Assembly: GCA_002898375.1 (NCBI GenBank)
Contig: BEIN01000010.1
Location: forward strand, 1-64,000
Length of the DNA: 64,000 nt
Origin: a bacterium HR37
Lineage (GTDB): Bacteria; Desulfobacterota_D; UBA1144; Nemesobacterales; CSP1-2
Direction of reading: 5' to 3'
Shown here: positions 46,334 to 48,667 of the stretch, piece by piece
How the letters are laid out: each line of letters opens with the position of its first letter
Position numbering within the stretch: position 1 is the stretch's first letter
Position numbers and translations under genes: made by a program
The notes under the pieces: generated by a model
Seen by the model: only the letters and a program-made list of their open reading frames with translations
What the model was told of the DNA's origin: nothing
Databases searched by the model: none

Positions 46334-46376
46334 CAAGAGGCAGCAAATCCTCTACAGAGAAGAAGTTTGGGGCAAT

Positions 46377-46405
46377 TTGACATTTTAATTCTGCTTCTTT
46401 ATCTT
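46377..46405 (+). promoter_or_regulatory. panB operon promoter
   Basis: TTGACA, 17-base spacer, TATCTT, identical hexamers and spacing to the carA promoter. Start expected near 46412, giving a leader of about 180 bases. Confidence 0.75.
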
Positions 46406-46411
46406 TATCTT

Positions 46412-46593
46412 GGCTGTTTTTGGTTAAACCGCTTGGATCCTCAAAAGGAGGACCGAGACGGAGGTTATTTTTGGTGCATACAATAAAAAGAGTAGGACGG
46501 AACGGGTGCCGTACCGAATCAGTTTAAGTAAAGGAAAGCCAGCAAGGGGTAGAACCTCTAGCTGGTTTTTTTGTTATTAAGCACCTAATTAAG
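46412..46593 (+). ncRNA. panB leader RNA resembling the pan motif
   Basis: A stem at about 46429-46459 pairs CCGCTTGG-A-TCCTC with GAGGACCGAG-A-CGG around an AAAAG loop. It leaves one unpaired A on each strand. A second stem at about 46495-46516 (GGACGG with CCGT-A-CC) has one unpaired A. The known pan motif, found before panB/panC/panD operons, is described as one or two stem-loops with two bulged adenosines. Position, tandem stems and bulges agree; the ligand of that motif is not established. A terminator hairpin follows. Confidence 0.65.
46539..46572 (+). terminator. Intrinsic terminator inside the panB leader
   Basis: CCAGC pairs with GCTGG, with an inner AGGGGT/ACCTCT stem (one G-T), an A-A mismatch between them and an AGA loop, followed by seven T. 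It ends 22 bases before the panB ATG, so it must be controlled for panBCD to be expressed. Confidence 0.8.
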
Positions 46594-47394
46594 ATGAAGA
46601 AAGTCACAGTTCCCACACTCTACAGCATGAAAAAAAGGGGAGAGAAGATAGTAATGGTTACCGCCTACGATGCCACAACTGCAAACATAGTTGATGAAGC
46701 TGGTGTTGATGTGATACTTGTAGGAGATTCACTTGGAAACGTAATCCAGGGGTTACCAAATACCCTCTCCGTAACAATGGATGAGATGATATACCATGTA
46801 AAAATTGTATCTCGCGGGGTAAAACGTGCACATCTTTGCGGAGATATGCCGTTTATGTCGTATCAGGTTTCCAAAGAAAGGGCAATAGAGAACGCCGGCC
46901 GATTCGTAAAGGAAGCAGGAGCAGAATCGGTAAAAATAGAGATAAACGAGAACTACCTTGAAACGGTAAATGCAATATCCAGGGCCGGAATCCCGGTTAT
47001 GGGACACATAGGGTTGTGCCCCCAATCCATACACCTTACTGGAGGATATAAGGTGCAGGGCAGGGAAGAAAGTGAAGCCAGAAGGCTACTCGAACTGGCA
47101 ATAGCAGCAAAAGAAGCAGGTGCTTTTTCCCTTGTGCTAGAGAGCATTCCCAAAGAACTTGCAAAGAAGATAACTGAATCCATTGATATCCCGACCATAG
47201 GAATAGGAGCTGGGCCTTTCTGTGATGGGCAGGTACTTGTTATAAACGACCTGCTTGGTATCTCTCCGGAACCGGTACCACGATTTGTAAAAAAATACGC
47301 AAACCTAAGAGAAACAATGTTAAGGGCAATAAGGGAGTTTGCTCACGAAGTAAGGGAAGGAACCTTTCCCGACGAAGAGCACTCCTATAGCTGA
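46594..47394 (+). CDS. panB: 3-methyl-2-oxobutanoate hydroxymethyltransferase
   Basis: 266 residues. MVTAYDATTANIVDEAGVD, ILVGDSLGNVIQGLPNT with metal-binding Asp, HLCGDMPFMSYQ and GIPVMGHIGLCPQSIH are PanB hallmarks; the catalytic Glu is in LVLESIP. It makes ketopantoate, the first committed step to pantothenate. First gene of panB-panC-panD; the ribosome site is weak. Confidence 0.95.
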   Translation: MKKVTVPTLYSMKKRGEKIVMVTAYDATTANIVDEAGVDVILVGDSLGNVIQGLPNTLSVTMDEMIYHVKIVSRGVKRAHLCGDMPFMSYQVSKERAIENAGRFVKEAGAESVKIEINENYLETVNAISRAGIPVMGHIGLCPQSIHLTGGYKVQGREESEARRLLELAIAAKEAGAFSLVLESIPKELAKKITESIDIPTIGIGAGPFCDGQVLVINDLLGISPEPVPRFVKKYANLRETMLRAIREFAHEVREGTFPDEEHSYS

Positions 47395-47402
47395 GGGGAA
47401 CA

Positions 47403-48242
47403 GTGAGGGTAATAAAGAGCATAAAAGAGATGCAAAACCTGGCAAATGAAGCAAAAAAAGCAGGGAAAAGGATCTCTTTTGTTCCCACAATGGGTGCCCT
47501 CCATAAAGGCCACCTGGAGCTCATATCAGAGGGAAGGAAAAGAGGTGATCTCCTCGTTGTAAGCATCTTTGTCAACCCAACCCAGTTTGGACCAAATGAA
47601 GACTTTAACAGATACCCAAGAGATATAGAAGGGGATCTAAAAAAGGCCAGGGAAATGGGTGTGGATGTTGTTTTTACCCCAACCATTGAGGAGATGTACC
47701 CAGAAGGCTTTCAAACCTACGTTGAGGTAAGCAAGCTTCAGAACCATCTCTGCGGTATTTTTCGACACGGACACTTCAGAGGCGTAGCAACAGTGGTGCT
47801 AAAGCTGTTTAATATCGTAAAACCCGATGTTGCCATATTTGGAGAAAAAGACTACCAGCAGCTAAAAATCATCCAGAGAATGGTAAAAGACCTGAACCTG
47901 GAGATAGAGATCGTTGGTTTCCCTATTGTAAGGGAGGAAGATGGCCTGGCCTGTAGCTCCAGAAACTCCTATCTCTCCCACGAGGATAAAGAGTGCGCAA
48001 GCACAATCTATAGAGCACTTCAAGAAATGAAAATTGAGTTTGAAAGAGGGCAACTCAGTGCAAGGGAGATCACGGAGAAGGGAAAGAGGATTCTAAAAAG
48101 AGCAGGGATTGAAGAAATAGATTATATAGAGGTATGCGATCCCGAAACCCTTGAAAGCAAGCAAAAGGCTACCAGAGGAGATATTGTAGCCGTAGCGGTA
48201 AGAATAAAGGGGGTAAGGCTTATTGATAATATAAAACTCTAA
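47403..48242 (+). CDS. panC: Pantothenate synthetase
   Basis: 279 residues from a GTG with AGGGG upstream. ATP site [16 protein letters not shown] (HxGH as HKGH), [29 protein letters not shown] and the KMSKS-like [11 protein letters not shown] are present. It condenses pantoate and beta-alanine. Eight bases after panB. Confidence 0.95.
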
Positions 48243-48253
48243 AGGAGGGCACA

Positions 48254-48667
48254 ATGGAGAGGCTGCTGCTTAAATCAAAGATTCATAGAGCAACTGTAAC
48301 GGAGGCAAATGTTGACTATGAAGGCAGTATAACAATTGATAAGGAGCTTATGGAAGCTGCAGACCTGTTTCCCTACGAACAGGTACATGTATTTAACGTT
48401 ACAAACGGCCACCGATTCATCACCTATGTTATAGAGGGAAAACACGGCTCAGGTGAAATCTGCGTAAACGGAGCAGCTGCTCACCTTGCAAGGAAAGGAG
48501 ATATACTGATTATCGCAAGCTTTGCCTCTTACGATGAAGAAGAATGTAAAAGCCATGAGCCAACCCTGGTCTATGTAGATGGTATAAACAGGATAACGAA
48601 GTTATTAAAACCCACTTCTAACCCCAAGAAGCTAAAGGTTGCAAAAAGTTCAGGTAGGAATCCATAG
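48254..48667 (+). CDS. panD: Aspartate 1-decarboxylase proenzyme
   Basis: 137 residues with AGGAGGG upstream. Self-cleavage should occur at Gly24-Ser25 (DYEGSITID) to give the pyruvoyl group. [31 protein letters not shown] and [16 protein letters not shown] are typical. It supplies beta-alanine to PanC, completing pantothenate synthesis from this operon. Confidence 0.95.

Follow-up and report, generated by a model that had tools for sequence, protein, structure and literature searches.

In the main text of its original description, the pan RNA is defined as a stem with two bulged adenosines, often present in tandem, that lies before pan genes (Weinberg et al. 2010, PMC2864571). Its ligand and mechanism were open at the time of that description, and a search of the literature outside subscription journals returned no later answer and no pan ligand. 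The corresponding Rfam family, RF01749 (pan), reached its cut-off in 106 of 300 sampled genomes of the phylum of genome G066. Group names are presumed here, this phylum being taken as Firmicutes and that of genome G076 (Desulfoluna) as Desulfobacterota. Within the Firmicutes pan RNAs (L140 to L169, n = 30), a stem of type A (GG-gcaGU-A...ACugc-A-CC) is followed by a stem of type B (CCGCUUGGAUC...GACCGAGACGG) and then by a terminator, and the Desulfobacterota loci L170 to L199 carry a single stem, of type B. Many of the Firmicutes RNAs (L144, L145, L154 to L160, and others) precede a Rossmann-fold gene resembling a ketopantoate-reductase-like protein rather than panB.

When upstream segments were scored for pairing with the terminator 5′ arm against shuffled terminator arms, the usual best partner of that arm in both of these groups was made up of the last bases of stem B and the tail that follows them. 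For example, ACGGAAGG pairs with CCUUCCG or CCUUCUG, ACGAAUGCG with CGCAUUUGU in locus L151, and ACAGAGGG with CCUUCUGU in locus L175, and the Desulfobacterota tail GGAAGG pairs with CCUUCU or CCUUCC of the terminator arm. The median z for pairing between B tail and terminator was −1.95 over 25 Firmicutes leaders and −2.22 over 30 Desulfobacterota leaders. Judged from these complementary sequences, stem B is likely, through its 3′ arm and tail, to form an antiterminator in the two groups, one that would exclude the base of the stem itself; no mention of such a pairing was found in the main text of the pan paper (PMC2864571).

Two further features were observed among the Desulfobacterota. Loci L172, L174, L181, L182, L184, and L188 contain a conserved hairpin-like insert (GGGAUAGUUGAUCAGGGG..CCUAGGUCUAUU..AGCCCAUU) between stem B and the terminator, for which no other Rfam family was matched. 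At some loci (L221, 274-2593 on the reverse strand; L224, 368-2718; L222; L225), the pan RNA heads an operon in which a 663-aa aldehyde:ferredoxin oxidoreductase-like protein and/or a small MoaD/ThiS-like protein (names given by eye) is encoded before panB, panC, and panD. It would be surprising to find a tungsten or molybdenum enzyme controlled by a pan RNA.

The window analyzed here is a 64,000-nucleotide stretch of DNA from bacterium HR37 (contig BEIN01000010.1), and the leader elements and pan genes described below lie on its plus strand. The nearest named relatives of its panB belong to Candidatus Dadabacteria (79 and 77% identity), which the NCBI taxonomy lists as a class of Thermodesulfobacteriota. 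Directly 3′ of the leader, the genes for ketopantoate hydroxymethyltransferase (panB, 46594..47394; NF001452/TIGR00222), pantoate-beta-alanine ligase (panC, 47403..48242; TIGR00018), and aspartate 1-decarboxylase (panD, 48254..48667; TIGR00223) follow one another in the order given in a preliminary description of this DNA, each scoring above its NCBIfam cut-off. The promoter TTGACA-N17-TATCTT proposed there was likewise found, as a sigma-70-like element at 46377..46405; a matching TTGACA precedes the leader in most relatives, and the promoter pattern was found once, with 0.6 occurrences expected from shuffles. A moaE-like gene (molybdopterin synthase, PF02391; 45884-46333) ends about 45 nt 5′ of this promoter, and the gene 5′ of moaE is rlpA.

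The preliminary description had assigned this leader to the pan class and had proposed the pan covariance model as a check. In that check, RF01749 matches 46356-46465 with 34.7 bits (E 1.7e-4), which is 1.5 bits short of the gathering cut-off of 36.2 bits, and none of the 61 genomes in the relatives search reaches this cut-off. The second stem of the model aligns exactly to 46429-46461, and its first stem is forced onto unrelated upstream bases. Other Rfam matches in the leader (TLS-PK6, DUF805b, HOTAIR_2, and Teg23) were far below cut-off. In the comparison of panB leaders, proposed as a second check, the bulged adenosines were invariant in all 21 aligned leaders, and together with the E value of the RF01749 match this supports the class assignment; the refuting outcome named beforehand, a leader with neither a pan match nor conserved bulged adenosines, did not occur. 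By the published definition, then, the leader is almost certainly a pan-class RNA, although it is not recovered as one by Rfam's cut-off and stem order. It resembles RF01749 in its two conserved bulged adenosines with a 5-bp stagger, its tandem stems (stem B and a pan-like stem A, with compensatory changes), and its site before panB, panC, and panD.

Stem B (46429..46461; CCG CUUGG (A46437) UCCUC-AAAA-GGAGGA CCGAG (A46458) CGG) is built from 3 bp, the bulged A46458, 5 bp, the bulged A46437, and an apical stem, so that one adenosine is bulged on each strand with a stagger of 5 bp, which is the canonical pan form and agrees with what had been seen previously in the first stem. Both adenosines are invariant in 21 of 21 leaders, six pairs of the stem show changes on both sides in this set, and the outer 12 + 12 bases are identical to those of the Firmicutes pan RNA L144. 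Its near-identity extends to the stem B of the single-stem Desulfobacterota RNAs, which also have a terminator before pan genes but, unlike the window, only one stem.

Stem A (46495..46515; GGACGGAAC..GCCGUACC) reads GG ACGG A (A46502) CGGGU G CCGU (A46513) CC, and it fits a divergent form of the pan pattern, with 3 + 5 pairs and the staggered bulged adenosines A46502 and A46513. A single bulged A had been reported in this second stem; the bulge on the 3′ strand stands, and one or two unpaired adenosines are present on the 5′ strand as well. The stem differs from RF01749 in its short loop and in its non-standard fifth pair, A46501-G46508; most leaders share this A-G combination, and only 3 of 21 have a standard pair here, namely A-U (L010 and L011) or C-G (L018). 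Apart from this, stem A has an invariant core and is near-invariant across the 21 leaders, the outermost pair showing GC/AU exchange; in L018, a longer paired hairpin replaces the loop. Additional copies of the A-stem pattern in L125, L129, L136, and L137 apparently fall inside coding sequence and were set aside.

The panB upstream regions compared were those of the family and order, and the 21 leaders share one architecture: promoter, stem B, about 25 nt, stem A, about 20 nt, terminator, and ATG. A covariance model of this arrangement (R1) matched 21 of 58 genomes of the phylum, at one place each and with 60-89 bits, and these genomes belong to families f1 (7 of 7), f2, f3, and f4; families f5 to f8 were without an R1 match. 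A model from family f3 only (R2) found the window at 49.3 bits (E 6e-11) as its sole match there, recovered all eight other non-f3 leaders, and gave no match on nine loci of the f6/f7 type; stem A was also recovered by this out-of-sample model. In family f6 (L025 to L031), panB comes immediately after what looks like the terminal part of an rlpA-like gene, leaving no space for a pan leader, which suggests that pan control has been lost from this family or was never present.

For the whole leader of the window, the fold energy is −57.6 kcal/mol, or 4.6 sd lower than dinucleotide-shuffled sequences give. In the alignment of the 21 leaders (A1), 93% of cells are paired, compared with 25-44% when the partners are slid, and seven pairs are changed on both sides, a number that none of 500 shuffles equaled. 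Because they are conserved in 21 genomes, the leader elements are not due to chance. As had been described, a strong intrinsic terminator lies just before panB, with its hairpin at 46538-46565 and its U-run at 46566-46572 (46538..46572 in all), ending 21 nt 5′ of the panB ATG at 46594; across the set, the gap from terminator to ATG is usually 16-30 nt. Terminators accompany 20 of 21 leaders, which gives good support to the earlier proposal of termination control, and panBCD would very probably be regulated in this way. The sister genomes L006 and L007 have a gap of 148-149 nt between terminator and panB, with an insert rich in GGAATTGGGAATT-type repeats. One leader of family f2 (L016) keeps both pan stems and the short open reading frame described below but lacks an intrinsic terminator; its control may therefore be exerted at translation alone.

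With regard to stem order, RF01749 runs from A to B, whereas the window, together with the rest of the Dadabacteria set, has the type B stem first and the A-like stem second. Outside Dadabacteria, R1 scores stayed at or below 38 bits in 247 Desulfobacterota genomes, 33 bits in 300 Firmicutes genomes, and 28 bits in 201 genomes of the phylum of G071, and the model gave no match in 198 genomes of the phylum of G078; the matches inspected rest on stem B alone. Over these scans of four other phyla, the reversed order was thus not found outside Dadabacteria, and its description in this clade is new.

The link between stem B and the terminator differs as well. In RF01749 pan RNAs the B tail is GGAAGG and is complementary to the terminator, whereas in the window it is GGAGG, with a start codon downstream. 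The GGAGG (46460-46464) is not complementary to the terminator, and the window's B tail pairs with it at −4.6 kcal/mol (z −0.7). The median z for Dadabacteria is +0.5, and the B-tail pairing is absent in 19 of the 20 testable leaders of this group. Antiterminators formed by the B tail, the B 5′ arm, the A arms, the 5′ leader, or the spacer of the open reading frame were each considered, and none clearly beats shuffles, with median z for the segments tested lying between −1 and +0.8 across the Dadabacteria set. The exception is L033 (family f4), in which a helix of 10 bp forms between GACUUUUUAUUA and the terminator arm (z −3.2); it is also the one leader of the 21 in which stem B is not followed by a start codon with an open frame.

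The GGAGG is Shine-Dalgarno-like and overlaps the base of stem B (46460..46464), two of its Gs being in the basal helix with a pairing probability of 0.98-0.99 in the window. It is intact in 15 of the 21 leaders, all 15 among the 20 that bear an open reading frame; the remaining ORF-bearing leaders have variants, close ones in several, while L016, L021, and L023 show a weak motif or none. It is followed in the window by a putative leader ORF (MVHTIKRVGRNGCRTESV, 46471..46527) with a TTG start (or GTG at 46474) and a TAA stop at 46525-46527. A start codon (TTG, ATG, or GTG) at ribosome-binding spacing, with a frame open through stem A, occurs in 20 of 21 leaders, and the spacers are only 35% identical between genera. 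When 12 genus representatives were compared with spacer shuffles, 10 had an NTG at a spacing of 4-8 nt (p 2e-6) and 11 had a frame that stays open through stem A (p 2e-8), values to be read with the leader ORF having been noticed and tested on the same sequences and with genera that are not fully independent.

The placement of the start codon is therefore conserved, and the coding of the ORF is putative: given the start codon, 16 of 20 leaders have frame 0 open through A, hardly more than the 14 of 20 for +2, one of the two control frames. The leader peptide is not conserved, because the frame relative to stem A varies among genera. The ORF mostly ends about 10 nt or less from the terminator hairpin, inside it, or past it, positions compatible with blockage of the hairpin by a ribosome; in the window, the stop lies about 10 nt 5′ of the hairpin, where a terminating ribosome would do no more than touch it. 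A UUGA-like motif with some other conserved role, instead of a start codon, may also account for the NTG. The preliminary description included neither the reversed order of the stems, nor the lack of the usual antiterminator, nor the Shine-Dalgarno-like sequence and short ORF that lie between the stems and extend through them.

Taken together, the leader is best read as a pan off-switch in which the connection to the terminator was probably rewired through translation of the leader ORF, a rewiring that we infer from these comparisons. The pair of B and A stems would be bound by a pathway product, or by a protein that reports on it, leading to premature termination and turning panBCD off. The B stem's 3′ arm and its tail (CGG-AAGG) would in most pan RNAs serve as the antiterminator strand too, so that a bound B stem would free the terminator. 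Families f1 to f3 have lost the B-tail pairing and carry the stems in reverse order; their B tail would instead be a GGAGG ribosome-binding site, followed by a start codon and a short ORF that runs through stem A. With stem B free, a ribosome would start at UUG, AUG, or GUG, melt stem A, and end at or near the 5′ arm of the terminator, in which case the terminator would not form and panBCD would be read. With stem B occupied, the GGAGG would be blocked through its two Gs in the basal helix, the leader ORF would be silent, and the terminator would form, leaving panBCD off. We regard this explanation as a whole as evenly balanced, and the translation-coupled step in it as possible, at somewhat less than even confidence; that an ancestral antiterminator strand became the ribosome-binding site, with the ribosome rather than an RNA helix deciding the panBCD terminator, is put forward more tentatively still.

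The conserved stems could also be explained by a dimeric RNA-binding protein for which B and A are half-sites, with no leader ORF involved. Once bound, such a protein would promote or block the terminator, with GGAGG-NTG either belonging to the binding site or surviving from the old antiterminator strand. A dimeric protein site was suggested in the original description of the motif (Weinberg et al. 2010, PMC2864571), and two short stems with invariant bulged adenosines and helix sequence would suit one, as would the fact that no antiterminator was detected in families f1 to f3. However, the inspected Desulfobacterota pan RNAs consist of a single B stem and an antiterminator, and a relic tail would not be expected to preserve, from genus to genus, both GGAGG and a start codon at the distance that suits a ribosome, which leaves the protein site a doubtful explanation. 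A direct metabolite riboswitch, in which a missed upstream pairing (long-range, tertiary, or pseudoknotted) competes with the terminator, would be in keeping with the B-tail pairing of pan RNAs elsewhere and with the complementarity between 5′ leader and terminator seen in L009, L011, and L017; we consider it unlikely, given that no tested Dadabacteria segment pairs with the terminator arm clearly above shuffles.

Ribosome-mediated attenuators of the trp/tna type carry a leader ORF, and the present leaders are like them in placing a short ORF ahead of an intrinsic terminator; they differ in having no conserved peptide or codon run and in the structured pan element that sits on the ribosome-binding site. 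Attenuation by a leader peptide sensing amino-acid or translation status, in which B and A do no more than give the leader its shape, would account for the start codon and short ORF that precede the terminator in most leaders. The peptides, however, share no single-amino-acid run, the reading frames differ between genera, and the strongest conservation is that of the pan stems and not of codons, all of which makes attenuation of this kind very improbable.

The Rfam cut-off overlooks pan RNAs throughout this clade, and the fixed stem order of the model is the most likely reason. For Firmicutes and Desulfobacterota, the comparison offers a concrete mechanism, in which stem B would compete with an antiterminator made from its own 3′ arm and tail. 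Dadabacteria are a natural variant in which this antiterminator output has been lost and the stems are in reverse order, and under the preferred reading of a rewired pan off-switch, the comparison separates the sensing part (the two bulged-A stems) from the acting part (the tail and terminator). Because these parts would be separable, ligand screening and reporter tests should be straightforward.
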